From IMG/VR virus record IMGVR_UViG_3300047491_000255, positions 60,819 through 124,818 of that record: 64,000 nucleotides of DNA. One strand, written 5' to 3'. The translations under genes were made by a program, and so were the position numbers. Of this stretch, positions 1 to 64,000 are shown piece after piece; the stretch's first letter is position 1, and each line of letters begins with the position of its first letter. Below the pieces are notes generated by a model. That model did no database searches and was not told the DNA's origin. It worked only from the letters and a program-made list of their open reading frames with translations. This DNA comes from a virus.

Positions 1-99
1 TTGCCTGTTAGTGTTTTTCAGGAAAGATTTACGAGGCCAACCTGAGTCCTCGGCATGTCATCAGGTTTCAACACCACACGTCGAATACCTTACGCCCCC
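1..99 (-). ncRNA. ssrA: tmRNA (SsrA), 5' part, cut by the window edge
   Basis: On the minus strand the sequence starts with GGGGGCGTAAGG followed by ATTCGACG, the signature of the tRNA-like 5' end of bacterial tmRNA. It continues with GAAACC, then CATGCCGAGG, then GGCCTCGTAAA, matching the conserved 5' pairing region in the right order. The last four bases (positions 4-1) read GCAA, and GCA is the usual resume codon of the tag, so the tag frame begins exactly at the window edge. tmRNA with SmpB rescues stalled ribosomes. The tag, pseudoknots and 3' acceptor half are outside the window. Seen directly: the conserved blocks; inferred: function. Confidence 0.9.
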
Positions 100-113: not shown

Positions 114-319
114 GTCGGGCTTTCATGCACCCGATGAGAGGTTTCGGACTAAGCCTACTTCCAGCAGATTGTTACGTCACTTCTTTATACTCGGTTGGCA
201 ACCAGAACAATCAACAGTTTCGCCGACGATTACCGAGTTGAACATCGCTCCTACCTTGCAGCAGCTAGGCAACCTGCATCATCGAGCGGAATACCGATGT
301 CCATCTATCCACTCGTCAT
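114..319 (-). other. leader region of the tmRNA transcript, no gene seen
   Basis: Between the promoter-like motif and the boxA there is no convincing reading frame on either strand. The minus strand has several inverted repeats, for example GGTTGCC with GGCAACC-type pairing around positions 195-275, so a folded leader or processing region is plausible. No tRNA-like T-loop was found. Confidence 0.35.
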
Positions 320-348
320 CATTACATTACCAGATTCCTTCCAGAATA
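320..348 (-). promoter_or_regulatory. 29-bp promoter-like motif, copy 1 (before tmRNA)
   Basis: Minus strand: TATTC, 12 nt, then GGTAATGTAATG, with a T-rich stretch upstream. Same spacing as six other copies. It lies about 220 nt before the tmRNA 5' end with no gene between, so it probably drives the tmRNA. The first of the repeated GTAATG units replaces the usual GTATGG end. Confidence 0.55.
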
Positions 349-405
349 CAATAAAAAATTTTTGGTGACCTCTCCCTCCCGTCAAGCAGTACCAGAAGCA
401 TCTGG

Positions 406-3547: not shown

Positions 3548-3981
3548 TCGAGCGTCTCGGGTCCAATTTCATAACCCGACTTGAGCCGCTTCTCAGTCCA
3601 ATCGGTTTCCCGATCTTAGCTCCACGGCTGATACTCGAAAGGACTTTGTGATGGCGTGCTGTTACGCCAAAGAATCCACCATGCGGTTGAGTATGGCCTA
3701 CGTCAAAATCGCGGTCCGCACGAACATTTTTGACGCCGGGAGCCGCAACCTCCTTCGCCACACAACAGGGCAGTACACTCTACCGCACCCCCGATGGCTC
3801 CGGCATGATCTTTCGATCTTCCGTCTCTTCGAGATGCAAGACATCCGGTTCCGTCCGGCCTACCCAATCCCCGTTGCGCCACTCCGAATAGCCGCTATTC
3901 CAACGGCACTCACGTAGTGATTCTCAGCGATGCACTCATTAAGGTGGCTGCCTCTAAGCCCACCACCATCACTAGTCCAAA
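3548..3981 (-). ncRNA. candidate structured RNA, segment 1, with a 23S GTPase-centre-like 5' domain
   Basis: Noncoding segment that starts after a boxA-like site. Near its 5' end the minus strand reads GGCTTAGAGGCAGCCACC, one base different from helix 43 of bacterial 23S rRNA (GGCTTAGAAGCAGCCACC type), followed by TTAA and GAGTGC, also as in 23S. TAGTGAT and ATCACTA (7 bp) close this region, like helix 42. Downstream are stems capped by GNRA loops: GATC-GAAA-GATC at 3808-3819 and ATCGG-GAAA-CCGAT at 3601-3614. Not RNase P or a group I intron as far as I can see. Role unknown; ribosome-factor mimicry is a hypothesis. Confidence 0.5.
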
Positions 3982-3994
3982 TTGTCAAAGAACA
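3982..3994 (-). promoter_or_regulatory. boxA-like site before structured RNA segment 1
   Basis: Minus strand TGTTCTTTGACAA, differing by one base from the site before the tmRNA. Immediately upstream of the 23S-like domain. Confidence 0.55.
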
Positions 3995-4040
3995 TGTGAA
4001 GCCACGATCCATACCGTCCCAGGTTCGGGCTGACCCTACT

Positions 4041-4197: not shown

Positions 4198-4212
4198 AGA
4201 ACATCCTCACAT

Positions 4213-4241
4213 CCATACATTACCGATTCTTTTTCAGAATA
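4213..4241 (-). promoter_or_regulatory. 29-bp promoter-like motif, copy 2 (before structured RNA locus)
   Basis: Minus strand TATTC, 12 nt, GGTAATGTATGG, preceded by a T-run. It overlaps the last codons of the gene at 4220-4687 and points into the noncoding locus, so it is the likely promoter of the structured RNAs. Confidence 0.6.
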
Positions 4242-4687
4242 CGGGAAAAAAATGTTTTTTTCTTTTGAGTCTCTTCGACGTTCTCGTCGATGGTGACGAC
4301 ATTGTCCGGTCCCCGTTCAGACTCCACAGTAGGCTCAATCTCTAGGTCTGCCGCCTTCACACCATCTTCGATCTTGTCTGGAGCTGTGCCCTTCGGCTTC
4401 GATCCTGCGATATTCAAAATCAGCTCTCCAAGCTTTGTATCGATCACACGACCCGGAACGATCTCCTCGCCATCCTGACGCCGCTTCTCCGTGTCTATCT
4501 TATGAGCTTCGATCTGATGCCTGTAAGACCAATTACGAACCCCTTCCTTCCATTCCCCATCAATCAGGACATCCAGACGATACCTCTTATCAGGATTGTT
4601 TCTCTGAATGTTTCGCTTCTTCCGAATCGCATTGGCACGAGCTTGCTTTTTCTGCCACCTCTTACGCTCTACTCTTGTCTGACCCAT
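4220..4687 (-). CDS. hypothetical basic protein, 155 aa
   Basis: The N-terminal 35 residues are very basic (KRWQKKQARANAIRKKRNIQ), suggesting nucleic-acid contact, followed by a short beta-rich segment (YRLDVLIDGEWKEG) and an acidic tail ending in a basic peptide. Ribosome-binding site GGAGGATGGCAAT precedes the ATG. A sigma70-like -10 (TATAAT) lies upstream at 4743-4748. The 3' end contains promoter-like motif copy 2. No family recognised. Confidence 0.65.
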   Translation of the reverse strand: MGQTRVERKRWQKKQARANAIRKKRNIQRNNPDKRYRLDVLIDGEWKEGVRNWSYRHQIEAHKIDTEKRRQDGEEIVPGRVIDTKLGELILNIAGSKPKGTAPDKIEDGVKAADLEIEPTVESERGPDNVVTIDENVEETQKKKTFFSRILKKNR

Positions 4688-8273: not shown

Positions 8274-8287
8274 ATCATCCCCTTCAC

Positions 8288-8316
8288 CCATACATTACCG
8301 AAATGGAGCTAGAATA
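8288..8316 (-). promoter_or_regulatory. 29-bp promoter-like motif, copy 3
   Basis: TATTC, 12 nt, GGTAATGTATGG on the minus strand, just upstream of the genes at 8094-8273 and 7188-8090. The ribosome-binding site GAAGGGG follows 3-4 nt after the motif, as expected if transcription starts at or just after it. Confidence 0.6.
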
Positions 8317-8325
8317 AGGGAGTAA

Positions 8326-42639: not shown

Positions 42640-43257
42640 TTACAGTATTGAAATGTCTGTCAATCCACAAGAACCCTTATAAACTCTCCGAATAGAATTT
42701 AAATTGTCACGAATAGACATGAAAATCTCTCGAATCTCCCACATCTCATCCTCTTCCTTCTTTCGACCATCTGCCATAAATGATTGTGCAAGAAATCCCA
42801 TACGCCTCAAACATTTATTATAAGCATACCGGGTTCTAACCTGAGAAAAACCCATCATCTCTGCCGTCATAGTGAAACTAGACGTATAAAACATTAGAGT
42901 TAATATCTCCATTTCATCCGGTGTGAAATACCCAGACTTTTCCTCGACGAACCGAACAAAAATATCGAAAACGGAATGAATATAGAAGATATACCGAAGT
43001 CGACGCCGAATCCGCTTAATATCGTAACAAAGAGAAGGCTGAGATCGGTTCAGTATCCTCTGAACATCCTTCTGCTTTTTACGAGAAACGAAAATCAGGT
43101 ACAGGATGTCCCTGTCCTTATCGTTTAGAAAACCGAAAATCGAACGAAAAGCCAGAACTTGCTCGACACTGAAATATGGCAATACCCTATCTTCTATGCC
43201 ACTACCTGTCCTGACATTTTCAACTCGATCCCCTATGTAACTTACCGTGGTGAACAA
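42640..43257 (-). CDS. sigma-factor-like HTH protein, 205 aa, TTG start
   Basis: Residues 43-95 (LNDKDRDILYLIFVSRKKQK, then VQRILNRSQPSLCYDIKRIR) resemble region 4 of sigma70-type factors, with a helix-turn-helix and basic tail; a second HTH-like segment (DEMEILTLMFYTSSFTMTAE then MMGFSQVRTRYAYNKCLRRM) follows. No region 2 is apparent. Starts with TTG after AGGGGCACACA. It could direct host RNA polymerase to phage promoters such as the 29-bp motif (inference), or be a DNA-binding regulator. Confidence 0.55.
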   Translation of the reverse strand: MFTTVSYIGDRVENVRTGSGIEDRVLPYFSVEQVLAFRSIFGFLNDKDRDILYLIFVSRKKQKDVQRILNRSQPSLCYDIKRIRRRLRYIFYIHSVFDIFVRFVEEKSGYFTPDEMEILTLMFYTSSFTMTAEMMGFSQVRTRYAYNKCLRRMGFLAQSFMADGRKKEEDEMWEIREIFMSIRDNLNSIRRVYKGSCGLTDISIL

Positions 43258-53501: not shown

Positions 53502-53523
53502 GCTGGCTCCTTTTTACGCCATC

Positions 53524-53553: not shown

Positions 53554-53571
53554 CTGTTTGTGAAATATTAA

Positions 53572-53661
53572 TGGTGCCAGAGGTGGGATTTGAACCCACA
53601 ATCCCCTTGCGGAGAAACAGCGCTCTCGGCGCTGCGTGTTTGCCAATTTCACCACTCCGAC
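53572..53661 (-). tRNA. tRNA-Leu (GAG)
   Basis: Acceptor GTCGGAG with CTCTGGC, encoded ACCA. Anticodon stem CAGCG/CGCTG, loop CCGAGAG, anticodon GAG. Long variable arm (TCTCC-GCAA-GGGG) and TTCAAAT loop. Confidence 0.92.
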
Positions 53662-53964
53662 TAAAACATCAGCCTAATCATTCCGCATGGCGGGCTGCGA
53701 CCTTCTCTTACGTGTTCTCATGCGGCACCGTTGTATGATCTCCCGCCACTAACGGCTTATCCGCTCCTCTGGACAACTGAAATAGTCGGACATGCCGTGT
53801 TCATCACAGAGTTGAACGGGCATCTCAGTCTCACGGTTCCCCGTCTAAATCCACCGATGTTTAACTCTGGACTGTTTCAACAACCAAAGGCAACTTCGCC
53901 GTTCAGGATTCCATCAGTCGCTTCCAACTGACTCTGCCTGCGTCTAATTCCGCCACATGTCCTT
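53662..53964 (-). other. unassigned spacer with tRNA-like halves
   Basis: No convincing gene. The minus strand begins GGACATG followed by TGGCGGAATTAGACGC, a tRNA-Leu-like acceptor and D-arm (from 53962), and CATGTCC, the perfect complement of the first seven bases, occurs at 53788-53794. No anticodon or T-arm fits a normal tRNA between them. A related GGTGGATTTAGACGGGG occurs in the middle. Perhaps decayed tRNAs or an RNA of unknown kind. Confidence 0.35.
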
Positions 53965-54049
53965 TGGTAGAGGTAGAGGGATTTCAACCCCCACGTCTTT
54001 CGACACTTCCTTTTGAGGGAAGCGTGTCTGGCAATTCCACCATACCTCC
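53965..54049 (-). tRNA. tRNA-Leu (CAA)
   Basis: Acceptor GGAGGTA with TACCTCT (one G-U pair), encoded ACCA. Anticodon stem CTTCC/GGAAG, loop CTCAAAA, anticodon CAA. Variable arm present. T-loop TTGAAAT departs from the usual TTCAAAT, so this copy may be slightly degenerate. Confidence 0.85.
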
Positions 54050-54145
54050 AAAAATCAAAACTTGAACTTCTACAACCTTTCGAGTTTCTTTTCCATCCCA
54101 CGCATATCCTTCAAACGACCTTCTTTATCTAGCCTCCTGACTCAA

Positions 54146-55366
54146 TCAACCCTGTTTACAAAGCCTATTCCAAGCCATTTCCGAAACTTTTCGGTAAAGA
54201 GCCTCCACCTTTTCCAGACTAATCTTCTCCGGCAGTTTGCACGACTTCTCTACCTCACGCAATTCCTTCATCTTCTCTTCCGCCATTGAAACCAATCTTT
54301 CATAGTCTGTGGTCTTGCCCGTTCGGATGTCCATGACCTGTTCTAGCGATTTTCCAGAAAGCCGAACCATTGGCTCTCCATACTTTGCCAGATGGAGTCC
54401 AGACAAAAGCAGCCTCATACAATGAGCCATATTTTTGGCATTGATGTGGCGTTTTCCGTCTTCATGTCCGGCATACCGCTCCTGATTACGCTCCCGAAAC
54501 CATGTCCAGTAAGACTGCCACAGCTTGACAGCTCTTTCATACTCATGCTCGTCATAAATCAAGATTCCAGCGAATCTGGTGTGTTCGTCGTCTATTGGGA
54601 TTGACTCGCAGACAAGCATATCGTCGCCTCGAAAGACACCCTTGCATTGAGGGTCTCCCAAGTAGCAATACAGACGATAGGCGTTTTGCATGTGCTCAAC
54701 AGCCGCCACATGGTAGTCTTTGAGGTTGATCCAAGGCATGTCCTTAATTAGGATTGGTCGAAATGGCATCCTTGGAGAAGGCATATCTGGATGAGTCCAC
54801 GCTTCGGCTCCTGGAATGCACGGAATAATCCTGCAGAAGTCTAGCTTTTTTGGACGTTCTACTGGTTCTGGATGGTTAGATTTCCTCGTAGTGCTATCAG
54901 CACGCTTGAACTGACCAATGGCATAACCACAATGTCTCGTTATACACTCCTTGGAGATAAAAATATCTCGATTGGCAATAACCTCCTGAAACTCTGGTGA
55001 CGAGCTAACAACACAGTCCTCTGGGACCCAAAGAGATTCAAGAACATTGGGAGCGGCCACTTTCAACAGGTCAAAAAATCTATGCAGGGTGTATGCAATG
55101 TCGTCGTTTTTCTTTTTCTCTACAGTCTCCCTTTGATCCGATATTTGCTCAATGGGAGCTCTGATTGACAAATAATGTGACATGGGAAGACAAAAAATAG
55201 AACGAACATCACGATCACTTGTTGGCAAATTGGTGCCATAACAATGACTACCTCCGACATACTCATAAAGCATGAACCCAGACTGCCTGACGAGATTAAG
55301 ACGGACCTCTGGATCATATTCCGTATGACATACTGCGTCTTCCAAAAGTTTTAAATTAACGTCCAT
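54146..55366 (-). CDS. RlaP-like nucleotidyltransferase, 406 aa
   Basis: Polymerase-beta-type motif YVGGSHCYGTNLPTSDRDVR (GS...D-x-D), followed by a long helical region with HRFFDLLKVAAPNVLESLWV and CMRLLLSGLHLAKYGEPMVR. This is the COG3541/RlaP family, named for association with RNA repair pathways. With tRNAs and a CCA enzyme in the same phage, RNA end repair is a plausible role, but substrate is not known. No ligase or kinase partner is in the window. Confidence 0.75.
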   Translation of the reverse strand: MDVNLKLLEDAVCHTEYDPEVRLNLVRQSGFMLYEYVGGSHCYGTNLPTSDRDVRSIFCLPMSHYLSIRAPIEQISDQRETVEKKKNDDIAYTLHRFFDLLKVAAPNVLESLWVPEDCVVSSSPEFQEVIANRDIFISKECITRHCGYAIGQFKRADSTTRKSNHPEPVERPKKLDFCRIIPCIPGAEAWTHPDMPSPRMPFRPILIKDMPWINLKDYHVAAVEHMQNAYRLYCYLGDPQCKGVFRGDDMLVCESIPIDDEHTRFAGILIYDEHEYERAVKLWQSYWTWFRERNQERYAGHEDGKRHINAKNMAHCMRLLLSGLHLAKYGEPMVRLSGKSLEQVMDIRTGKTTDYERLVSMAEEKMKELREVEKSCKLPEKISLEKVEALYRKVSEMAWNRLCKQG

Positions 55367-55374
55367 TTTCTCTC

Positions 55375-55546
55375 CTATCTGATTGCATAGTCGGCGCAGT
55401 AGTAAACGGATCGATCCTTCGTCAGGCCGAACGTGTCCGCCTCGACTCTGGCCAGCCGTGCCTTGTCATTGATGCCGTCATTCCCTCGGATCACCTCGAT
55501 AAGTGCTGCAAGCGGTTCACACGCGGCCCACGTTGTCCTGATTCAT
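55375..55546 (-). pseudogene. small gene interrupted by a frameshift
   Basis: GGAG precedes ATG at 55546, which gives MNQDNVGRV and a stop. The neighbouring frame continues with clear coding sequence (CEPLAALIEVIRGNDGINDK then ARLARVEADTFGLTKDRSVY and YCADYAIR) to a stop at 55375, but has no start of its own. One base lost or gained near 55515-55525 would give a protein of about 57 aa. No ribosomal slippery site visible. Confidence 0.55.
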
Positions 55547-55596
55547 ACGGTCTCCTTTGTGGTCCGCCGGAGTCTGACCGGCGGCGTTCTGTTTAC

Positions 55597-55794
55597 TCAT
55601 TGCATCGTCCCTCGCTTGAGATAGTGCAGCATCCACTTCATTTCGTCCGTAGGGATCATTCCTCCAGCCGCGTGACTGTATCGCATCATCCCTAGATCAC
55701 CTGCACGGCGGTCAATCGTGCGTGGCAGAATCGCGTAGTGGTACAAGACTGCGCCTGCCGCAAGGCCGACAAGAAACAGAACAATCTCCTTCAC
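55597..55794 (-). CDS. small single-pass membrane protein, 65 aa, GTG start
   Basis: GTG start after AAAGGAGAATACC, overlapping the stop of the upstream gene. Residues 2-20 (KEIVLFLVGLAAGAVLYHY) form a transmembrane helix; the rest is soluble (GMIPTDEMKWMLHYLKRG). Function unknown. Confidence 0.6.
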   Translation of the reverse strand: MKEIVLFLVGLAAGAVLYHYAILPRTIDRRAGDLGMMRYSHAAGGMIPTDEMKWMLHYLKRGTMQ

Positions 55795-56075
55795 GGTATT
55801 CTCCTTTCGTCGTGCCTGACCTGTTCGTTGGTGATACGCAATGCCGCGACTTCGGCCTCCAATTCGGCAATCCGCTTCATCGCTTCTTGCAGCTTGTACC
55901 ACGGCTGGTGTTTCTTTCTCTCTTCATACCGTTGGTCTGATAATTCACGGCGAGCCTTCACGCTGTCTGGGTGGTGTTGCTTGCACCATCCATCTTTCCA
56001 TTCCTTGCGGTTGCACTGGCTTTGCCTTGACCAGGGACCGCTAGAGACCAATGCCTTGCATTTTGTTTCGTCCAT
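55791..56075 (-). CDS. small zinc-binding protein, 94 aa
   Basis: N-terminal TKCKALVSSGPWSRQSQCNR and KDGWCKQHHP give a C-x(n)-C-x(n)-C-x2-H motif typical of small DUF5763-like zinc proteins; a coiled-coil helix (LQEAMKRIAELEAEVAALRI) follows. Start at 56075 after GGGGGAATGACA. Accessory role unknown. Confidence 0.65.
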   Translation of the reverse strand: MDETKCKALVSSGPWSRQSQCNRKEWKDGWCKQHHPDSVKARRELSDQRYEERKKHQPWYKLQEAMKRIAELEAEVAALRITNEQVRHDERRIP

Positions 56076-56077
56076 TG

Positions 56078-56374
56078 TCATTCCCCCTTCAATTCGGACG
56101 CACCATCAACCGCGTCCAGACTAGTTCCGATTCGCTCCGCAATCTGACGCGGCTGTTGTTTGGGGTGACGGCGGTTCCACCTCGCGGAAACAATTGCCGT
56201 CGCCGGTTCGCGGATCAGGAAGTCGCATGCATTGACTTTCATGCGTGCAGAACACCCCGTACAATAGACGCTGGCCGACCTTGCACGCCCGACAAGCCTT
56301 GCCGACGCGCCGCAGAATGGGCACGCCAACAAGGCATCCGAGGCTACCTTCATCCGCTCGCTTCGCTCACTCAT
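56078..56374 (-). CDS. Lar-like zinc protein, 98 aa
   Basis: LLACPFCGASARLVGRARS, then VYCTGCSARMKV, then IVSARWNRR: two CxxC pairs and the C-terminal W-N-x-R typical of the Lar (restriction alleviation) family. Original Lar enhances methylation of host sites and protects phage DNA; for most relatives the role is untested. Shares its N-terminal 16 codons with the gene at 406 by DNA duplication. Confidence 0.72.
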   Translation of the reverse strand: MSERSERMKVASDALLACPFCGASARLVGRARSASVYCTGCSARMKVNACDFLIREPATAIVSARWNRRHPKQQPRQIAERIGTSLDAVDGASELKGE

Positions 56375-56667
56375 TTCGGAGCCTCAACTTTCTCGTTGGG
56401 CAGATACAGATTCTCGATTGGCAACTTGCCGGTTACTCGGAACATGACGCTGTTCCACAGGCCACGCACGCCAGAGAGTTTGAGCGATGTCATGCACTGG
56501 CTCGAACTCCCTCCAGTGACGCGATACCGCTTGCCGAGTTCAAGCGTGCTTCTGGCGCGCATGTTCTCTGCAGGGTATCCACCGCGTCCGTGGAACACTG
56601 CCCAACAAGCCTGTGCAGCCCTACGGCTGGCCCGCGACGGTTTCTGGTTATTCTTCGTTGTTCTCAT
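56371..56667 (-). CDS. hypothetical small protein, 98 aa
   Basis: Basic N-terminus, then an SH3-like strand pattern (TLELGKRYRVTGGSSSQCMT, GLWNSVMFRVTGKLPIENLY). Ends NEKVEAPK in the repeated junction sequence that carries the ribosome-binding site of the next gene. Unknown function. Confidence 0.55.
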   Translation of the reverse strand: MRTTKNNQKPSRASRRAAQACWAVFHGRGGYPAENMRARSTLELGKRYRVTGGSSSQCMTSLKLSGVRGLWNSVMFRVTGKLPIENLYLPNEKVEAPK

Positions 56668-57113
56668 GGCCCCTCTTTTATTGGAGGGTCGGGCTGTTCA
56701 GCCTTGGGGAACGTCGCCCCTAGCGATTCAAGCCACGCCTGTTCCTGGATGTTCAGACCGAGGACGACGGCAAGTTTCTGACAGACATGGAAGATCATCT
56801 TCCGGTCGGCTTCTGGTACTCGATCAGCCGAACCATAGGAGGCGGGTGGCTTGGCTGGTTCGGCTGGCTGTTTTGGCCTACGTGTCCGCCACACTGGCGG
56901 GTAGAACGGATAAGCCACATCAGCGGGGGTCGCATCTCGTCCTGTCTGGCACCATTGGCTGTCGTCGCGGTGCCATTTGTATTCGTCGAGCCATTGCGGC
57001 AGCTCGACGCTCGGGTCGAACTCGCGCCAAGACCCAACAAGGGGCTGCTGGTCAACAACAGTCTTCATGTTTTCCTTTCCAACCAGCCGAGGCTGACCGG
57101 CGTCGATCTTCAT
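56664..57113 (-). CDS. hypothetical protein, 149 aa
   Basis: Trp- and Pro-rich middle (LPQWLDEYKWHRDDSQWCQT, YPFYPPVWRTRRPKQPAEPA) and helical C-terminus (RKMIFHVCQKLAVVLGLNIQ). Start at 57113 by ATGA overlap with GGAG upstream; an ATG at 57068 with a stronger GGAAAGGAA site gives 134 aa. No family recognised. Confidence 0.5.
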   Translation of the reverse strand: MKIDAGQPRLVGKENMKTVVDQQPLVGSWREFDPSVELPQWLDEYKWHRDDSQWCQTGRDATPADVAYPFYPPVWRTRRPKQPAEPAKPPASYGSADRVPEADRKMIFHVCQKLAVVLGLNIQEQAWLESLGATFPKAEQPDPPIKEGP

Positions 57114-57313
57114 TGCTCGTCTCCGAAGGCCACCACTCGGTTGGAATCAACACAAGCAACCTCGTCATACCGAACAGTCACTGTCACGACCCCGAGACCG
57201 TTCTGATATGCCCACAAGTCCTTGACCGGGTAAACATTCATCGTCTCTTCTTGAGTGTTGTCAGACCACACAACCATCTTCCGCCCATCCTTCAATAAAC
57301 AATATGTGTGCAT
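57110..57313 (-). CDS. hypothetical small protein, 67 aa
   Basis: Beta-rich, about the size of a small SH3-like fold (MHTYCLLKDGRKMVVWSDNT, LGVVTVTVRYDEVACVDSNR). No family recognised. ATGA overlap with the downstream gene. Confidence 0.55.
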   Translation of the reverse strand: MHTYCLLKDGRKMVVWSDNTQEETMNVYPVKDLWAYQNGLGVVTVTVRYDEVACVDSNRVVAFGDEQ

Positions 57314-57319
57314 GTTTCC

Positions 57320-57419
57320 TCACTTCCAGAACTTCGACAGCACCCGGAGATACACCCAACTCGGATGCTCTCCAACCTTCTCGCCGACCTGAGTTGACCG
57401 TTTAAACGAATCCCCTTGA
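57320..57419 (-). pseudogene. start-less gene fragment
   Basis: A minus-strand frame encodes KRSTQVGEKVGEHPSWVYLR and VLSKFWK before a stop at 57320, with the feel of a real domain end, but a stop precedes it and no ATG, GTG or TTG start fits. Probably a remnant left by recombination. Confidence 0.3.
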
Positions 57420-57426
57420 AATTATT

Positions 57427-57630
57427 CTAGCGAAAGCATCCATCGAGTTCCCGCAGTTTCGTTGCGAGCTTTGCCGCTTCAGAGAGCAGTTCCCGCAGCA
57501 TGATTTCGAGCACGGGGTCGTCAACACAGGCCGCTTTGTGTGCCTGTCGGATGTCGATGGCGAGCATGTCAGCGCATTGCGCCGCCTTTGTGATTGCTTC
57601 TTCTTTGTCTTTGGATTTGGCTGTTGTCAT
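57427..57630 (-). CDS. small helical protein, 67 aa
   Basis: Lys/Glu/Ala-rich helices (EEAITKAAQCADMLAIDIRQ, LLSEAAKLATKLRELDGCF). Start at 57630 after AGAAAGGCAAC; an ATG at 57648 is an alternative. Accessory protein of unknown role. Confidence 0.55.
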   Translation of the reverse strand: MTTAKSKDKEEAITKAAQCADMLAIDIRQAHKAACVDDPVLEIMLRELLSEAAKLATKLRELDGCFR

Positions 57631-57668
57631 GTTGCCTTTCTGGTTCATTCAGCGCCGAACCATGCGCT

Positions 57669-57878
57669 TCAGTGAGCGGTTGTGCCGTGACGGTAATCCC
57701 ACGCAGAAACCTGAGCAGGGACGCCGACGATCCAATGATATTCCTGCCCGTCATAGAGGTAGCAGAGTGTGGTATGCTTCACCCGGTAGTTTCCGTTGTA
57801 GAACTCAGGGACGGCCCCACAGAACGGGCACGCCAACAAGCCCGTCGAGGGCACGGCTCGATCCGCGTCGTTGCCCAT
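57669..57878 (-). CDS. Lar-like zinc protein, 69 aa
   Basis: LLACPFCGAVPEFYNGNYRV gives the first CxxC of a Lar-type fold; the second metal site is weak (TTLCYLYDGQEYHW) and the end reads SAWDYRHG instead of W-N-x-R. A diverged paralogue of 56078-56374, sharing the LACPFCG block. Possibly degenerate. Confidence 0.5.
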   Translation of the reverse strand: MGNDADRAVPSTGLLACPFCGAVPEFYNGNYRVKHTTLCYLYDGQEYHWIVGVPAQVSAWDYRHGTTAH

Positions 57879-57879
57879 G

Positions 57880-58128
57880 TCATGCCTCGCTTTCTCGCCG
57901 AGACCCCTCACGGGCGGCGTTCGGCAATGACGGAGGCACAAGCGGACCGACGAACAGGCCAACCTTGTCTGTCTGTGGCCCCTCAAGCATTACGGACCAG
58001 TACCTACCGTCCGTCTTGCCTTCATCGAGAAAGCATTTCGGAAGCCACCACCAGTACCCTTGTCGTGTTGGCCTTACCAGAGGTCCGACCGTATCCTCAT
58101 TCCGCTTCGCTTCATTCGTCACTGTCAA
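57880..58128 (-). CDS. hypothetical small protein, 82 aa
   Basis: First gene after motif copy 4, with a strong AAGGAGG site. TRQGYWWWLPKCFLDEGKTD and RYWSVMLEGPQTDKVGLFVG suggest an aromatic beta domain of the kind seen in small accessory proteins. No family recognised. Confidence 0.6.
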   Translation of the reverse strand: MTVTNEAKRNEDTVGPLVRPTRQGYWWWLPKCFLDEGKTDGRYWSVMLEGPQTDKVGLFVGPLVPPSLPNAAREGSRRESEA

Positions 58129-58143
58129 CCTCCTTGTTTACAC

Positions 58144-58172
58144 CCATACATTACCGAAAGACGATTGAAATA
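58144..58172 (-). promoter_or_regulatory. 29-bp promoter-like motif, copy 4
   Basis: TATTT, 12 nt, GGTAATGTATGG on the minus strand. The ribosome-binding site AAGGAGG and ATG of the gene at 57880-58128 follow within 20 nt. Confidence 0.6.
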
Positions 58173-58176
58173 AGGA

Positions 58177-58773
58177 TTATTTCTTCTTTTGTTTTGTCAC
58201 AAACAGGAATAGATCATGTGAATCCTTCCTGAGCTTCTCCAAGTCCATGGGCACAACCTTCCTGTCCAGCCATGCCTTCGGCGTCTTATAGCCATCAAGA
58301 TTGAACCAGTGATCGAATTTGAGACTCCGAACGACATAAGGACTGTGCGTGATGACCAGACACCCCAGAGTCCCCTTGATCCTCTCCCGGAGATGCTCAT
58401 TCACCCACGTCACGACACCCATGATGGTTTCCTCAGAGCACCCCACCTCGATCTCGTCCAGAACCAGATAGCTGCCATAGACGGCATTGGATGCACAATT
58501 GAGAAAGTTGATCGTATTGACGCTAGTAGGGTCCCAGTCCGTATCTCTGGTAAAGATGCTCGCAACCCCATGATCCTGTGTTCTCAGACTCATCGAAATA
58601 TGAACCACCCTCTTGCCGAGCTTCTCCACCTCTTTTCGAAAGTTGAGTTGCTGTCGGATCAAGCTCTTTCCAGAGCCATTGCTACCCGTCAGCATGGATA
58701 TGGAGCCGTCCATCGGAATCTTCGAGTAGATGCTCACGATCCGGTCAAATTGTTTTTCAACAGTTACATTCAT
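58177..58773 (-). CDS. ABC/SMC-like ATPase, 198 aa
   Basis: Walker A LTGSNGSGKS (about 30-39), Walker B SYLVLDEIEV with a following ETIMGVVTWVNEHLRERI segment, and the H-loop LVITHSPYVV. A short stand-alone P-loop ATPase of the ABC/RecF/SMC type, with the usual signature motif weakly seen. Roles of such phage ATPases range from DNA repair to anti-defence; none is indicated here. Confidence 0.75.
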   Translation of the reverse strand: MNVTVEKQFDRIVSIYSKIPMDGSISMLTGSNGSGKSLIRQQLNFRKEVEKLGKRVVHISMSLRTQDHGVASIFTRDTDWDPTSVNTINFLNCASNAVYGSYLVLDEIEVGCSEETIMGVVTWVNEHLRERIKGTLGCLVITHSPYVVRSLKFDHWFNLDGYKTPKAWLDRKVVPMDLEKLRKDSHDLFLFVTKQKKK

Positions 58774-58775
58774 GT

Positions 58776-58804
58776 TTATACATTACCCAATCGGATTCAG
58801 AATC
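58776..58804 (-). promoter_or_regulatory. 29-bp promoter-like motif, copy 5
   Basis: GATTC, 12 nt, GGTAATGTATAA on the minus strand, 3 nt before the start codon of the ATPase gene. If transcription starts where the other copies suggest, this mRNA would be nearly leaderless. Confidence 0.5.
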
Positions 58805-58885
58805 ATTTTCTTTTGTCGCAAACTCAGAGCACTTCGCCCCAGACAACCTATCATCTTTGCAGTTAGGACTGCCAAAGACCCGATT

Positions 58886-58975
58886 TCATCTGCCAAGGGA
58901 ATTCTCCAATTTGGCACAGGCTTTAACAGATCGCTCGCACTGGTGGCAACACGTATCTTCACAACCGATCTTCAT
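58886..58975 (-). CDS. cysteine-rich small gene, 29 codons then in-frame TGA
   Basis: AAAGGATCAAG precedes ATG at 58975. The peptide MKIGCEDTCCHQCERSVKAC continues to AKLENSLGR and a TGA. Downstream in the same frame the codons remain protein-like (NRVFGSPNCKDDRLSGAKCS then EFATKEN), with more cysteines, so the TGA may be a nonsense mutation inside a formerly longer metal-binding protein. The +1 frame is also open, which weakens the case. Confidence 0.35.
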   Translation of the reverse strand: MKIGCEDTCCHQCERSVKACAKLENSLGR

Positions 58976-59144
58976 CTTGATCCTTTCATACTCTTTTAAA
59001 AAATGGCGTTCGATTCGGGCTTTTACCGCTTTCTTCCCACGAGTCTCGCACTACAACTCGTGAGCTTTCTGTGCCCCCTTGGCAGACGATATGAGATTGC
59101 ACTTGGCTCTCCACCATATCGGGGTAGCCATCCCCGGCACATTT
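58976..59144 (-). other. leader between tRNA-Ser(GCT) and the Cys-rich gene
   Basis: No gene supported; a 62-aa frame overlapping the tRNA is an accidental frame. Confidence 0.3.
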
Positions 59145-59230
59145 TGGCGGAAGCGAGAGGGGTCGAACCTCCATATCCTTTCGGACGACGGTTTAGCAAA
59201 CCGTACCCTTACCATTCGGGACACGCTTCC
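59145..59230 (-). tRNA. tRNA-Ser (GCT)
   Basis: Acceptor GGAAGCG with CGCTTCC, encoded GCCA. Anticodon stem ACGGT/ACCGT, loop TTGCTAA, anticodon GCT. Long variable arm (TCCGAAAGGA). Reads AGC/AGU. Confidence 0.93.
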
Positions 59231-59236
59231 AGAAAT

Positions 59237-59539
59237 CTACAAGAATCCAACCACCTTCATTTTCTGAGCGAGCAACCAGACACCTCCCTGAGACGCTGGT
59301 CTCTTCAACTCAACAAAGTCTTCCACCTCTACTCTCATCCACACTCGACCCTTCATCGAAAGGTGTGGAGCACATGCAGTCAGGGTGACATGCCATCCCG
59401 GACGATGAGCATAGCCCTTCCGATGATGATCCTCTGCATCCATCCAGACTCCTAGTTGGATGACCTGCTTACGATTGATGAATAATGGTCCAATCGTTCC
59501 ATTACGCCGCATCCTCAACAACTTGAACGCTTTGACCAT
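59237..59539 (-). CDS. conserved phage protein with HRPGWH motif, 100 aa
   Basis: RKGYAHRPGWHVTLTACAPH and LSMKGRVWMRVEVEDFVELK are hallmarks of a family of small phage proteins of unknown function. Strong site AAGGAGG before the ATG. It sits between two tRNA genes and follows the truncated endonuclease gene. Confidence 0.65.
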   Translation of the reverse strand: MVKAFKLLRMRRNGTIGPLFINRKQVIQLGVWMDAEDHHRKGYAHRPGWHVTLTACAPHLSMKGRVWMRVEVEDFVELKRPASQGGVWLLAQKMKVVGFL

Positions 59540-59581
59540 TAATCCTCCTTGAACGTTGTTGTCTTGAACTTTCCTAAGTAT

Positions 59582-59719
59582 TCAGTCAATTTCAACAACC
59601 AAATCGTAGTCTTGACTATCCGTCAAATGGACACATACCGTATGCCCTTGCGATGTAAACCACCCTATCGCCAGACCAACATCACCCTGCTTCTTCGTAT
59701 TCTTGTGACCAGTCAACAT
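59582..59719 (-). pseudogene. truncated PD-(D/E)XK-like endonuclease, 45 aa
   Basis: GGAGGTAGAAT before ATG. The frame MLTGHKNTKKQGDVGLAIGW, FTSQGHTVCVHLTDSQDYDL, VVEID matches the start of Holliday-junction-resolvase-like or intron-associated PD-(D/E)XK nucleases, where the D of YDL is catalytic. A TGA follows EID, where such proteins usually have a Gly; the same frame continues ILRKVQ into the next gene's ribosome-binding site. About 100 residues are missing, so this is a remnant. Confidence 0.5.
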
Positions 59720-59743
59720 ATTCTACCTCCCTTCCTGTCAAAA

Positions 59744-59831
59744 TGGTGTGAGCAGAGGGAATTAAACCCACTCGGATCCAAAGATGCGAGATTTACAGTC
59801 TCGCCCGCCTATCTTAGCGGTCTATGCTCAC
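59744..59831 (-). tRNA. tRNA-Tyr (GTA)
   Basis: Acceptor GTGAGCA with TGCTCAC, encoded ACCA. Anticodon stem CGAGA/TCTCG, loop CTGTAAA, anticodon GTA. Long variable arm as in bacterial tRNA-Tyr. T-loop TTTAATT is slightly unusual. Confidence 0.9.
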
Positions 59832-59888
59832 ATAAAGATACAGACTCCTGCCTTCGCCTCTAGGCATACCGACCCTTAAACAGATTTC

Positions 59889-59965
59889 TGGAGAGGAGTA
59901 TCGGACTCGAACCGATGAAATGCGGGTTTGCAATCCGCCGCCTTGACCAACTCAGCCAACTCCTC
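59889..59965 (-). tRNA. tRNA-Cys (GCA)
   Basis: Acceptor GAGGAGT with ACTCCTC, discriminator T as in bacterial tRNA-Cys, encoded CCA. Loop TTGCAAA, anticodon GCA; one mismatch (A-C) at the base of the anticodon stem. Confidence 0.9.
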
Positions 59966-59973
59966 AAAGATTC

Positions 59974-60063
59974 TTACTTCGCCCGACACCGAGCATTCTG
60001 CTTGGCAGTCGCAGAACCGATGTTACCAGAACTCCTCTTCGTCCTAGTGCATCCGTTCTTAAT
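59974..60063 (-). CDS. possible very small gene, 29 aa, ATT start
   Basis: The frame KNGCTRTKRSSGNIGSATAK then QNARCRAK looks coding and basic. The only start that fits is ATT overlapping the stop of the gene at 60059-60424. Weak. Confidence 0.25.
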   Translation of the reverse strand: MKNGCTRTKRSSGNIGSATAKQNARCRAK

Positions 60064-60424
60064 CTTCGTCGATTTTCGATGAACTTGCTCGTTTCGGAAT
60101 CCCTTCATTCAACTTCTTCCGGATCTTGAAATATTTCTTCGTCCATTCCGGGTCTTTGGGATCGAACCCCCATCCACTGATCTTGCACTGCTGTAAAACG
60201 CAAAGCTGCCTGAAGTGTGGAGGCACGATACACTTGCCGTCAACCACGAATGTCTTCCCGAATGGCATCTTCGGAAATGGATAACCTGCCTCAGTCATCG
60301 CATCTGCGGCAATCTGACAATATTCCGTCGAGCAGCATTGCCCAACCTGACGACAGACATCCTGACACTTTGCATTTGTCAGGTCTGCCATCTCCTGCCA
60401 CAGAGCCTCTTGTTCTTTTGTCAT
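60059..60424 (-). CDS. cysteine-rich protein, 121 aa
   Basis: Many cysteines: CQDVCRQVGQCCSTEYCQIA and PPHFRQLCVLQQCKISGWGF. Resembles small proteins that bind an Fe-S cluster or zinc and that recur in phages; no family name. Start by ATGA overlap with the methyltransferase-like gene upstream. Confidence 0.6.
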   Translation of the reverse strand: MTKEQEALWQEMADLTNAKCQDVCRQVGQCCSTEYCQIAADAMTEAGYPFPKMPFGKTFVVDGKCIVPPHFRQLCVLQQCKISGWGFDPKDPEWTKKYFKIRKKLNEGIPKRASSSKIDED

Positions 60425-60969
60425 ACTTGCTTTCTCCACTTCCACAAAAACCTGCGCCTGTAACTACCACTCCCGAAAGTAACATCCATCTTCATGTCCA
60501 GATCGTATCCAGCCTTCCGAATACCATCCTCGATCTCTGTCGTCCTCGCCTTCTCGCAAATCTCCTGAGCCGCCTCAAAGAGAACCACCCTTGGATGATG
60601 CTCCCCGATAATCCGCATGAACGTCTTGATGTCCGTACAGGATTCCGGGTTTGGCCCCCAATGAATCACCGCTCCACAAGCCCCAATGAACATCAGGACA
60701 TCCACCCGATCCACCCTTACGTCCTTGTCATCCTTCAACTCAAAGAGTGCCTTCCGTCCGAGTCTCTTTGCCTGCAACTCCTCTATGAAGTCCGGCTGAA
60801 CATCATTCCCGTAATAGAAAGCGTACCCTTCAAGGTATTCAAACACCGGAGCCTTGCCGCAGTTGAGATCAAGAACATGAGCACCTAATGCGTCATTCCC
60901 GATGACAGCCGCATAGAGTCTGCCCCTGCCGTCACTGAGTTCATTGAGATGTTTCCAGTAATCTGTCAT
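60421..60969 (-). CDS. methyltransferase-like protein, 182 aa
   Basis: HVLDLNCGKAPVFEYLEGYA is a motif-I-like segment, then FYYGNDVQPDFIEELQAKRL and MFIGACGAVIHWGPNPESCT. Compact class I Rossmann-type fold, paired head-to-tail by ATGA overlap with a second methyltransferase gene. Substrate unknown. Confidence 0.55.
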   Translation of the reverse strand: MTDYWKHLNELSDGRGRLYAAVIGNDALGAHVLDLNCGKAPVFEYLEGYAFYYGNDVQPDFIEELQAKRLGRKALFELKDDKDVRVDRVDVLMFIGACGAVIHWGPNPESCTDIKTFMRIIGEHHPRVVLFEAAQEICEKARTTEIEDGIRKAGYDLDMKMDVTFGSGSYRRRFLWKWRKQV

Positions 60970-61517
60970 ACCACACACTCGAACCAATGAAGCGTCCTGA
61001 CACCCTTGAAATGAGGGAAGACTCCATGAACCACATTTCGGAACGTCCGGTTCAACGATCCCAAGAACTTCGCCTCTGAGAAGTAGTATTGTCGGTACTG
61101 CCCCGTCGGATCGAAATGACTTCCATCCTCCCTCTCGTAATCGCATGGATCAGCACTCACCCACACAACGATGTACACGACGCCCCCATCCTTCGTCACC
61201 CGGACATACTCATCTAGTGCTACCTGATAGTCGAACATATGATCGATGGTGCTCAGATCAACCAGCATGTCGAATATCTTGTTCTCGTAAGGCATCGCCC
61301 TTATATCCCCGACTGTTGCAACAAGACCAGGAAACTTGGATTGAGCCCTCCGAACACAATCGGAATCAATCTCAACACACTCCGCTCCAATGACATTGGC
61401 GATAGGCGTATCCCCATCAGCTTCGTTCCAGCAATCGGTTTTCAGGATTCTCTTGGGTTGATACCTACGAACCAAATCCTGAACTGCTGTCAGGTAATCT
61501 TCATGTATATGAGGCAT
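60966..61517 (-). CDS. SAM-dependent methyltransferase, 183 aa
   Basis: CVEIDSDCVRRAQSKFPGLV and VGDIRAMPYENKIFDMLVDL match class I motifs II-IV; YVRVTKDGGVVYIVVWVSAD the post-motif strand. Motif I is degenerate (RILKTDCWNEADGD). Start at 61517 after GGAAAGGAAGAGG. Substrate unknown. Lies just after tRNA-Asn. Confidence 0.68.
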   Translation of the reverse strand: MPHIHEDYLTAVQDLVRRYQPKRILKTDCWNEADGDTPIANVIGAECVEIDSDCVRRAQSKFPGLVATVGDIRAMPYENKIFDMLVDLSTIDHMFDYQVALDEYVRVTKDGGVVYIVVWVSADPCDYEREDGSHFDPTGQYRQYYFSEAKFLGSLNRTFRNVVHGVFPHFKGVRTLHWFECVV

Positions 61518-61537
61518 AGCCTCTTCCTTTCCTTTTT

Positions 61538-61613
61538 TGGCTGCTGGGACAGGACTCGAACCTGCAACGTCTTGATTAACAGTCAAGCGAACTACCAGTT
61601 GTTCTACCCAGCA
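61538..61613 (-). tRNA. tRNA-Asn (GTT)
   Basis: Acceptor TGCTGGG with CCCAGCA, encoded GCCA. Anticodon stem CTTGA/TCAAG, loop CTGTTAA, anticodon GTT. Standard T-loop TTCGAGT. Confidence 0.94.
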
Positions 61614-61723
61614 ATCTTCTCATCATCCCACACGAAAATCGCACTACCGACATTCGCACCCGTAGGTCCGTAACGATTCTTCACGATCACTCCATCCACA
61701 ATCACGACGTTGTAATTGAGCAC
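61604..61723 (-). CDS. possible small protein, 39 aa, GTG start
   Basis: GAGGAAG precedes GTG. The peptide VLNYNVVIVDGVIVKNRYGP then TGANVGSAIFVWDDEKIAG is beta-rich and looks real; its stop overlaps the 5' end of tRNA-Asn by 10 bp. The frame extends upstream into tRNA-Ser(CGA), which is accidental. Confidence 0.45.
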   Translation of the reverse strand: MLNYNVVIVDGVIVKNRYGPTGANVGSAIFVWDDEKIAG

Positions 61724-61770
61724 CTTCCTCAGATTCAACTCATTCTGCGTCGTATGCCAAACTTCCCGAC

Positions 61771-61864
61771 TGGCGGAAGGAGAGGGATTTGAACCCCCGG
61801 TCGCTTTTTCGAACGACTCTCGATCTCGAATCGAGTGCGATAAACCAAACTCTGCCATCCTTCC
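61771..61864 (-). tRNA. tRNA-Ser (CGA)
   Basis: Acceptor GGAAGGA with TCCTTCC, encoded GCCA. Anticodon stem CTCGA/TCGAG, loop TTCGAGA, anticodon CGA (reads UCG). Long variable arm. Its first base overlaps the stop codon of the HTH gene. Confidence 0.92.
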
Positions 61865-62244
61865 TATACCTCGCTCTCTTTCGGCTCCCTGAAGTTGTCA
61901 TCGTGATAACCCCAATGAACCCTTCCCTTTCGATCCACCACCGCCACATGTCCCGGCATCTGCTTGATCTCTCCCAGATACAGGAGCGACTCTCCCGCCT
62001 TCCACGGATACCGCCACTTCTTCTCCGTTGCCTTCCCGATCACAAGCTGCATCGGCTTGAAAGTCGCCTGCGGCTTTTTCCGGCATATCATCCCGCGAAT
62101 CGCATCCTCGTACTTCCGATGAATCGCACAATGTCCCCGCTCCCAACGATTCACTGTCGCAAACGCCACATTCAAAGCCTTGGCGAACTGATTCTGTGTC
62201 AGCCCGACAGATTCCCGAATCATCTTGAGTTCATGCCGCGTCAT
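61864..62244 (-). CDS. HTH transcriptional regulator, 126 aa
   Basis: Residues 5-38 (LKMIRESVGLTQNQFAKALN, VAFATVNRWERG) are a classic Cro/cI-type HTH. The C-terminal part (YPWKAGESLLYLGEIKQMPG, VAVVDRKGRVHWGYHDDNF) is a beta domain of unknown role. Overlaps the next upstream gene by 4 bp. It may regulate phage or host promoters; no operator is identified. Confidence 0.75.
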   Translation of the reverse strand: MTRHELKMIRESVGLTQNQFAKALNVAFATVNRWERGHCAIHRKYEDAIRGMICRKKPQATFKPMQLVIGKATEKKWRYPWKAGESLLYLGEIKQMPGHVAVVDRKGRVHWGYHDDNFREPKESEV

Positions 62245-62540
62245 ACCTTCTCCTCAAAATGCGAACCAAAGATGTCAATCCCTCCCGGCACAAAGGCCAG
62301 AACCGCAACCGCATGAGCCGTCCGATTGAACTGATCGGCACATTCGCCCTTCTTGCCGCCGCCGAACAACAGGATGTCTCCACGCTCTCCGAGGATTTGA
62401 GATGTCTCCTGAGCCTTCTTCCGATCCTCTGCATCTGGTCCACCCTTAGCCTTGATCCTCTCAATCCAGAGCGGAATCGCCAATTGAAGCGCATTGCCGA
62501 GATTGGTCCCCGAAGAAGCTGATTCAGTTTTCTTTTCCAT
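62241..62540 (-). CDS. conserved phage protein, 99 aa
   Basis: Helical start, then GERGDILLFGGGKKGECADQ and NRTAHAVAVLAFVPGGIDIF with GSHFE. The NxxAHAxAxLAFxPGGxxxFGxHFE signature is a recurrent phage family of unknown function. First gene after motif copy 6; GGAG 4 nt before ATG. Confidence 0.65.
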   Translation of the reverse strand: MEKKTESASSGTNLGNALQLAIPLWIERIKAKGGPDAEDRKKAQETSQILGERGDILLFGGGKKGECADQFNRTAHAVAVLAFVPGGIDIFGSHFEEKV

Positions 62541-62542
62541 AA

Positions 62543-62571
62543 CTCCACATTACCGATCCTGTCCGATAATA
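62543..62571 (-). promoter_or_regulatory. 29-bp promoter-like motif, copy 6
   Basis: TATTA, 12 nt, GGTAATGTGGAG on the minus strand. The last four bases (GGAG) double as the ribosome-binding site of the gene starting at 62540. Confidence 0.5.
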
Positions 62572-62587
62572 CGAAAAAAGAATTTTT

Positions 62588-62672
62588 GGTGCCAGAGAAG
62601 GGATTCGAACCCTCAATCCTTTCGGCAACGGTTTTTAAGACCGTTTTGTATTCCAATTCCAACACCCTGGCA
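62588..62672 (-). tRNA. tRNA-Leu (TAA)
   Basis: Acceptor GCCAGGG with CTCTGGC, encoded ACCA. Anticodon stem ACGGT/ACCGT, loop CTTAAAA, anticodon TAA. Variable arm and TTCGAAT T-loop. Confidence 0.93.
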
Positions 62673-62698
62673 TTAAAATCTGATTTCACACCACATTT

Positions 62699-62869
62699 TT
62701 ACTTGATTCCAGAGCTCCCCAATACCATCATGCCAGTCGCCTTATCATTGATAAAATCGCAGCAGTAGATACCGGCGGGGATTACATTCTCACCTGCATA
62801 CTCCTTCATCCACCGCATCTTCTCCTGGTCGTTGTGCAGTCCCCTTGGACCGACCACTTGACAGATCAC
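62699..62869 (-). CDS. small protein, 56 aa, GTG start
   Basis: GTG start after AAGAGGCGA. The sequence VICQVVGPRGLHNDQEKMRW then MKEYAGENVIPAGIYCCDFI looks coding throughout and ends at 62699. It overlaps the 3' end of the next gene by about 80 bp in another frame, an unusually long overlap; the gene pair may once have been joined by a frameshift. Confidence 0.5.
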   Translation of the reverse strand: MICQVVGPRGLHNDQEKMRWMKEYAGENVIPAGIYCCDFINDKATGMMVLGSSGIK

Positions 62870-63011
62870 TCGCCTCTTCGTCGGCTATCTCATCCTTTGA
62901 TGCCCGACGCTCAGCCTTGGCTGCGCTGCGCTTGGCAACTGGACGCAGATGCTTCCACCACGAAGCATACCGAATCCTTCCAACCAACGTATCTTTACGA
63001 ACATGTGCCAT
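62790..63011 (-). CDS. small basic protein, 73 aa
   Basis: MAHVRKDTLVGRIRYASWWK then HLRPVAKRSAAKAERRASKD matches a frequent type of small basic phage protein (R-x-DT...WxKHLRxxxKR...ERR). The C-terminal 27 residues overlap a GTG gene in another frame and may be non-native. GAGGATTTAGAAA precedes ATG. Confidence 0.6.
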   Translation of the reverse strand: MAHVRKDTLVGRIRYASWWKHLRPVAKRSAAKAERRASKDEIADEEASDLSSGRSKGTAQRPGEDAVDEGVCR

Positions 63012-63095
63012 TTTCTAAATCCTCTCTACCCACGATGAGTGAGCTTCTACTACAATGACTGACAGAATACGAAAAACAGACCTTACATTTTTTTT

Positions 63096-63172
63096 TGGTG
63101 GGCGGTGAGAGACTCGAACTCCCAACATTCTGGGTGTAGACCAGATGCTCTAGCCAATTGAGCTAACCGCCC
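63096..63172 (-). tRNA. tRNA-Val (TAC)
   Basis: Acceptor GGGCGGT with ACCGCCC, encoded ACCA. Anticodon stem TCTGG/CCAGA, loop TCTACAC, anticodon TAC. Standard TTCGAGT T-loop. Confidence 0.94.
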
Positions 63173-63272
63173 ATGGGTGAGTGACCCGTGTCACCCACCT
63201 GAAACTTCAATATTCAGTTTTCAATGAACTCGGACAAATATCCAGACGAAATGTCCGGATTAACGTCCTCAT
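63173..63272 (-). other. spacer with two hairpins
   Basis: TGGGTGA/TCACCCA next to tRNA-Val and CGGACA/TGTCCG near 63230-63260. No gene. They may be processing or pausing signals in the polycistronic tRNA transcript. Confidence 0.35.
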
Positions 63273-63360
63273 TGGCGGAAGGAGAGGGATTTGAACCCCC
63301 GACCCCTTTCGGGGTTTCGGTTTTCAAGACCGATGCTATAAGCCGCTCTGCCATCCTTCC
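63273..63360 (-). tRNA. tRNA-Ser (TGA)
   Basis: Acceptor GGAAGGA with TCCTTCC, encoded GCCA, the same acceptor as tRNA-Ser(CGA). Anticodon stem TCGGT/ACCGA, loop CTTGAAA, anticodon TGA. Long variable arm. Confidence 0.94.
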
Positions 63361-63396
63361 ATACGACGGGCGCATTCAACCGTGCTCTGCCACTCG

Positions 63397-63455
63397 TCCC
63401 GAAGGACAAGGAGGGATTTGAACCCCCGAGGCCACCCGAAGGTGCCCTACCCGTC
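63397..63455 (-). pseudogene. tRNA remnant (variable arm and T-arm only)
   Basis: Minus strand GGCACCTTCGGGTGGCC resembles a long variable arm and GGGGGTTCAAATCCCTC is a T-arm, but no matching 5' acceptor, D-arm or anticodon arm precedes it and the sequence after it lacks CCA. Looks like the 3' half of a former class II tRNA. Confidence 0.5.
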
Positions 63456-63457
63456 TC

Positions 63458-63544
63458 TGGTGCTCGAAAGAGGACTTGAACCTCCAAGGGATTTCTCCCC
63501 ACCAGTACCTGAAACTGGCGTGTCTGCCATTCCACCATTCGAGC
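63458..63544 (-). tRNA. tRNA-Leu (CAG)
   Basis: Acceptor GCTCGAA with TTCGAGC, encoded ACCA. Anticodon stem CCAGT/ACTGG, loop TTCAGGT, anticodon CAG. Variable arm present. With the other four it completes the Leu codon set. Confidence 0.93.
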
Positions 63545-63562
63545 GTCATCTCTATTATACTC

Positions 63563-63638
63563 TGGTGGGCACTCTCGGGATCGAACCGAGTTCTCAGGTT
63601 TTTCAAACCAGTGTAATTACCAAACCTACGCAATGCCC
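63563..63638 (-). tRNA. tRNA-Phe (GAA)
   Basis: Acceptor GGGCATT with AGTGCCC, encoded ACCA. Loop TTGAAAA, anticodon GAA; the anticodon stem CTGGT/ACCTG has one T-T mismatch. First tRNA of the array. Confidence 0.9.
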
Positions 63639-63859: not shown

Positions 63860-63886
63860 CGCTTTTCTCAAACTTTTTTCTTACGT

Positions 63887-63915
63887 CCATACATTACCGA
63901 TTCTTGGCTTGAATA
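63887..63915 (-). promoter_or_regulatory. 29-bp promoter-like motif, copy 7
   Basis: TATTC, 12 nt, GGTAATGTATGG on the minus strand, with TTTTTATCCA upstream. It lies upstream of the sigma70-like promoter, so the tRNA array may have two promoters. Confidence 0.6.
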
Positions 63916-64000
63916 TGGATAAAAAGTTTTTTGTTCAAAACGTTGCATCAATCAAACAGATCGGTTAAGAACCCCTTTTCAGTCAGGTCTTCCTTGTTCT

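Follow-up and report, generated by a model that had tools for sequence, protein, structure and literature searches.

A predicted promoter class of uncultured jumbo phages, often with putatively leaderless transcripts

Introduction

A motif of two blocks, TATTC and GGTAATGTATGG, separated by 12 nt, recurs on the minus strand of the 64,000-nucleotide stretch of phage DNA analyzed here (the window; G000:C1:60819-124818, G000 being the whole virus record of 124,818 bp). A preliminary description had listed seven copies and read them as promoters belonging to a single transcription programme. The question is whether the motif is indeed a promoter and, if so, where transcription would start, which genes it serves and which polymerase reads it.

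A second record, G001 (143,854 bp), overlaps G000 over 61,995 bp at 99.9-100% identity in reverse orientation, and each extends past the overlap at one end. On this basis we take the two records to come from a single phage with a genome of about 207 kb or more. Nearly all of its larger genes lie on one strand, and its GC content is 47%. The nearest named relatives of its TerL are those of LR745208 (485 kb, 32%) and Tunturiibacter phage Tunturi_5 (309 kb, 27%), which places it in a jumbo-phage lineage; a TerL search of genome_contigs found no relative. The TerL of G009 is 64% identical in the best segment, and L133 repeats G009 at 99.99% and is not independent of it. The TerL gene of G003 (L018:13024-16107) is split by about 1.2 kb, perhaps by an intron or an inserted endonuclease, with residues 1-53 and 35-612 matching separately.

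Seven copies of the motif in the window

All seven copies were found on the minus strand, which is the gene strand, at 320, 4213, 8288, 58144, 58776, 62543 and 63887. The motif and its constant spacing are real, but the exact string occurs only in three of them (4213, 8288 and 63887); 58144 has one mismatch, 320 two, 58776 three and 62543, the weakest, four (counted by hand). The invariant core, present in 7/7 sites at constant spacing, is ATT plus GGTAATGT. Allowing up to three mismatches gave six matches; 100 dinucleotide shuffles averaged 0.13, and six was not attained in any of them. When a weight matrix built from the seven sites was run over the whole 124.8-kb record, the seven scored 27.1-36.4 bits and the next-best place 15.6; thus, random copies of the motif in coding DNA were not seen. 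Further, the stretch from 8.3 to 58.1 kb, which holds the late genes, contains no site.

We call the sites class B and number positions with the ATG position (see below) as +1, so that each predicted promoter covers -36 to +1, all on the minus strand. Promoter 1 (63884..63920), identified by the exact motif and the alignment, has its predicted +1 at 63884 (G), and tRNA-Phe and the tRNA array follow about 250 nt downstream. Promoter 2 (62540..62576) lies just 3' of tRNA-Leu(taa), and its predicted +1, 62540, is the A of the ATG of a 99-aa ORF (62241-62540) predicted to be leaderless. The same holds for promoter 3 (58773..58809; predicted +1 58773), whose 198-aa ORF (58177-58773) has a P-loop-like GSNGSGKS, read by eye. 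Promoter 4 (58141..58177) is followed by AAGGAGG 8-14 nt past the motif, a Shine-Dalgarno (SD) site for an 80-aa ORF with a GTG start (57880-58122), and promoter 5 (8285..8321) by an SD-like AAGGGG and a 59-aa ORF from 8273. Promoter 6 (4210..4246) is upstream of a structured RNA region and promoter 7 (317..353) about 220 nt upstream of tmRNA; their counterparts in G009 are at 51205 and 53288, respectively.

Sites in related records

When seven records were searched with up to three mismatches, five had a match (G000 6, G001 12, G003 10, G005 1 and G006 1); none was found in G002 and G004, and the reversed pattern, used as a control, matched nowhere in the seven. The single sites of G005 and G006 were left out of the site set. 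Refined matrices gave 7, 12 and 21 sites above 17 bits in G000, G001 and G003, where reversed sequence scored at most 14.3, 14.0 and 9.8, respectively. Three sites near the control ceiling were added for their strand and context (G001 139723, 13.7; G003 19301, 14.8; G003 71766, 14.7). We left out G000 68905 and 8109 (14.3 and 13.3), which are on the gene strand but have a broken AATGT core, and four places on the opposite strand (G001 96909; G003 113188, 83122 and 82954; 13.4-13.8). The set comprised 19 sites of G000 and G001, with one common site counted once, and 23 of G003, 42 in all.

In the more distant relative G009, CC.TAT-N15-G[CT]AATGT has five copies, which share one strand; the reversed control had none. 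One copy is upstream of tmRNA and two are upstream of an RNA that matches the window RNA at 72%, and thus the orthologous placement ahead of tmRNA and structured RNA is kept. When dyads were counted de novo in the gaps of G003 and G001, the motif was recovered above shuffles. A positional 6-mer search upstream of ATGs recovered it in G003 only, and not in G000, G001, G007 and G010. Class B was found neither by dyad searches nor by a relaxed pattern in G002, G004, G007, G008 and G010; fragments among these records may be missing the early region. In viral_contigs, the G003-type pattern had no match and the exact motif occurred in eight stretches. Two of these (L014 and L015) are G001, and the other six (L009-L013 and L016) apparently match by chance, as none has a second good site.

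Of 53 proteins encoded outside the shared part of G001, 3 match in G003; the promoter class has been kept while the genes downstream of it changed. The isolation of the sites, their spacing, their strand and their orthologous conservation strongly support the reading as a promoter class that serves one transcription programme, and we consider it very likely, on sequence grounds, that the motif is a promoter.

Anatomy of the predicted promoter

The alignment of the 42 sites displayed TTCC[G/T]TATT near -36..-28, [T/C]AATGT at -12..-7 and, at -1/+1, a pyrimidine followed by a purine; the sequence upstream of the motif is A/T-rich. In G003, TTCCGTAT is nearly invariant from -36 to -29 and G-13 C-12 A-11 A-10 T-9 G-8 T-7, the GCAATGT variant, is found in 23/23 sites. 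G000 and G001 have a looser CC.TATTC, GGTAATGT in 19/19 sites, and TAATGT followed by A in 16/19 and T in 15/19. The -10 letters are thus CAATGT in 23/23 sites of G003 versus TAATGT in 19/19 of G000 and G001, a clade-coherent difference that suggests a co-evolving recognizer. A pyrimidine occupies -1 in 22/23 (G003) and 18/19 (G000 and G001) sites, and a purine +1 in 23/23 and 17/19.

The spacing between the two blocks had been considered too short for a -35/-10 pair. This was a mis-parse: the -35-like element, TTCC.TATT, begins 5 nt earlier and the -10 element is TAATGT, with 18 nt between TTCCGT and CAATGT in G003. The wider alignment ruled out TATTC and GGTAATGTATGG as -35 and -10. A reading with TATRG as the -10 element and initiation downstream of it was also rejected, since in 20 sites transcription would then begin past the ATG. 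The sites do not have the canonical sigma70 arrangement TTGACA-N16..18-TATAAT; the elements present are TTCCGT-like and [T/C]AATGT.

Predicted transcription start and leaderless genes

In 20/42 sites, an ORF of 45 or more codons begins with an ATG at +1, 2 nt past the motif, a coincidence at about half of the sites that the preliminary description had missed. Other ATG offsets from -40 to +120 occurred on average 0.42 times and at most three times. Of the 22 sites lacking this ATG, 19 had the pyrimidine-purine step at -1/+1, compared with 0 to 11 at other shifts; the site-finding matrices did not use these positions. Dropping the three near-ceiling sites left 19/39 for the ATG and 18/20 for the step.

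Since the predicted +1 is the A of the ATG in 20/42 sites, the mRNAs would be leaderless, and we regard this as likely for about half of the class B sites. By sequence context, 20 sites were classed as leaderless, 15 as SD-led, 4 as weak and 3 as without an ORF. None of the 20 genes with ATG at +1 has an SD of four or more letters. SD tetramers precede 58-76% of genes of at least 100 aa, as counted with a simple caller that is itself biased to SD starts. One of these genes supports the ATG at +1 as the true start: it encodes a 747-aa protein of G003 whose residue 92 aligned to position 90 of phrog_1576. Counting against the leaderless reading, 3 of the 20 genes contain an SD-led start downstream in the same frame.

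The fixed-distance ATG would also be expected if the motif were a translation-initiation or mRNA-leader element and no promoter. We regard this as highly unlikely, because tmRNA, structured RNA, the tRNA array and genes that have an SD themselves are all preceded by the motif, and because base conservation extends to 36 nt upstream with the spacing unchanged.

Leaderless phage messages have precedents. PMC3594737 reports leaderless middle/late mRNAs for a phage that its table identifies as phiYS40, and in PMC5312081 the AR9 authors describe phage transcripts as often leaderless. The present phages would resemble the Thermus phage phiYS40 in having an mRNA class without leaders. Unlike in phiYS40, the predicted leaderless genes are tied to a distinct promoter motif, belong to a phage of 47% GC and are mixed with SD-led and RNA genes. 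We met no report of the class B motif in those parts of the literature on leaderless phage promoters that were covered, which is not proof of absence.

Genes and RNAs downstream of the sites

Sites without ATG at +1 mostly precede SD starts, tRNA, tmRNA or structured RNA. Targets in G003 and G001 include CobT-like and porphyrin-biosynthesis-like proteins, an NAD-dependent DNA ligase, an RNA ligase and a helicase, the last identified from the first 252 of its 649 residues. Of 20 downstream proteins searched, nine had some PHROG match (several weak or functionless) and 11 had none. The suggestion of a stable-RNA promoter class was not borne out as such, because the sites in the relatives mostly drive protein genes.

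Late genes carry a separate motif, TTTGATATT. In the form GTAATAATTnTTTGATATT, with 16 sites as seed and 49 for refinement, its counts, which include the training sites, were 10 in G000, 8 in G001, 4 in G003, 4 in G007, 11 in G009, 9 in G008, 5 in G002 and 7 in G004, on one strand in each record and with 0 in the reversed control. The 14 matches in AT-rich G010 mean little against 7 in the control. This second promoter-like class, common to most relatives, lies in the late region of the window at 6952-6981, 16504-16533, 24104-24133, 42614-42643, 52170-52199 and 52207-52236 (minus strand).

Taken as a whole, the best explanation, which we consider probable, is that class B sites are promoters specific to the phage and used by an RNA polymerase of bacterial type, often giving leaderless transcripts. 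The -35-like TTCC[G/T]TATT(C) would be followed by about 15 variable bases and the -10 element G[T/C]AATGT, and initiation would occur on a purine 7 nt past the latter. At about half of the sites this purine would be the A of the start codon; at the others the transcript would carry a leader with an SD, or the product would be tRNA, tmRNA or another structured RNA. Non-structural genes would be served, with the late cluster under another motif. The timing, which like promoter status and the exact start we infer, would be early or middle. Such a sequence rule predicts transcription starts, leaderless genes and a non-late regulon in uncultured jumbo phages, and makes testable whether phages couple promoter choice to leaderless translation.

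Recognition of the predicted promoter

No RNA polymerase beta-subunit match was found in G000, G001 and G003 (controls, 14/14 positive), and therefore the core enzyme is likely that of the host. A search with PF00940 was silent in the three records and in the controls alike and so carries no weight. A T7-type single-subunit phage polymerase would account for TATAGG near the start in G003, which we take to be T7-like; the motif is, however, bipartite and longer than a T7 promoter, and this explanation seems very improbable.

A dedicated phage sigma is plausible, and we tentatively suggest that host core polymerase with a phage-specified sigma could be the reader. Most simply, the candidate for class B would be a 320-aa protein with sigma region 2, encoded outside the window (G000:17566-18525), which has relatives in G007 and G010. 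Its structure model is poor (mean pLDDT 46.1). No region 2 match was found in the 151.8 kb available of G003; 0/40 proteins from the sigma-bearing half of G000 match in G003, so that the corresponding part may be missing from these 151.8 kb. The protein at 42640 (42640..43257, minus strand), earlier called sigma-like, does contain two sigma-region-4-like helix-turn-helix units (PF04545, 3.7e-6, and a second, weak region 4 match), but had no region 2 match. Its model was moderate (63.5), and sigma-region-4 domains were among the structure matches, none with an E-value below 0.3. Sequence searches of solved structures with both proteins gave nothing firm. The gene adjoins one matching a phage transcription antiterminator family (43220-43801, minus strand; phrog_6386, 2.8e-6).

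Alternatively, a primary or alternative host sigma, with or without a phage activator, may read class B as an immediate-early promoter whose variants reflect different hosts. We consider this possible but doubtful. It is consistent with the lack of a beta-subunit match in these three records, with a -10 that fits TAnnnT in G000 and G001 and with upstream A/T-rich tracts resembling UP elements. However, host promoters are usually far less tightly conserved than class B, and separate GAGTATAAT sites in the same genomes look more sigma70-like. These GAGTATAAT repeats (G001 36485, 41065, 54832, 76199, 124366 and 125874, with counterparts in G000) are perhaps host-type promoters; TGCAAG or TTTCACA precedes several of them by about 17 nt.

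Phage-sigma recognition has a partial parallel in phiEco32, whose sigma, gp36, uses the element tAATGTAtA according to PMC8948821, PMC4281155 and PMC4331800. The -10 letters are the same in G000 and G001 (TAATGTAT) and differ in G003 (CAATGT); tAATGTAtA-type copies are also present in the phiEco32 genome. Both systems have several copies per genome upstream of gene groups and a phage-encoded sigma. In contrast, phiEco32 promoters were published as single-element, whereas class B has the conserved -35-like TTCC.TATT at -36..-28. The phiEco32 start lies 6-8 bp past the element, and that of class B is predicted, from the ATG and the pyrimidine-purine step, 4 nt past the same nine letters. Further, the phiEco32 element serves middle and late genes, whereas class B is absent from late genes and often starts on an ATG. 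The two sigmas are not recognizably homologous: the Smith-Waterman score of 34 compares with a shuffle mean of 31.4, without detectable similarity, and both touch phrog_1740, the sigma considered here only at E 0.015. The promoters of gp47 of phage 7-11, GTAAtg-(16)-aCTA, are likewise bipartite, and the phage sigma that reads them has region 4, but they have other letters and serve late genes. Class B works like the phiEco32-type and phiYS40-type systems and is filed as a member of neither; its parts resemble known phage promoter elements, and the combination looks new.

Structured RNAs behind the predicted promoters

Thirteen tRNAs lie at 52587-63638 of the window, with the same anticodon order in G003 (L061, L062). 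The G003 array has further tRNAs at either end and differs in where small ORFs and class B sites fall between the tRNAs. The 5' part of tmRNA (1..99, minus strand) runs off the left edge of the window; the whole gene is at L008:510-917, with the tag AHLQNARVSTTSG, and tRNA-Met comes after it.

The RNA downstream of promoter 6 (3880..3995, minus strand) contains a boxA-like TGTTCTTTGACA and then GGCTTAGAGGCAGCC, which resembles helix 43 of 23S rRNA. The order of a boxA-like GTTCTTTGACA, ~20 nt, and GGCTTAGARGCAGCCA as in helix 43 is found in the window, L119:11660-11800 and L132:488-536. Against one E. coli 23S rRNA, the G009 copy matched over 31 nt at 90% and scored 38.3 bits, where 100 shuffles gave at most 32.6; L132 matched over 32 nt at 94%. 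The window copy matched the same 23S place over 19 nt at 89%, within the shuffle range. Folding of the 96-nt 23S-like stretch of the window was no better than that of shuffles (z -0.59), and z was -1.80 over 593 nt. An rRNA mimic behind the promoter at 4213 is possible. One might go on to suppose that a sigma-run leaderless regulon, together with tRNAs, tmRNA and a boxA-led mimic of the 23S GTPase-associated centre, forms a programme reshaping the host ribosome towards leaderless messages, a speculation that we think improbable.

A Type-P5 twister ribozyme was also detected at 2943-3031 of the window (minus strand, 48.6 bits), in the noncoding stretch between the structured RNA and tmRNA, and in G009 at L119:12831-12907 (38.0).
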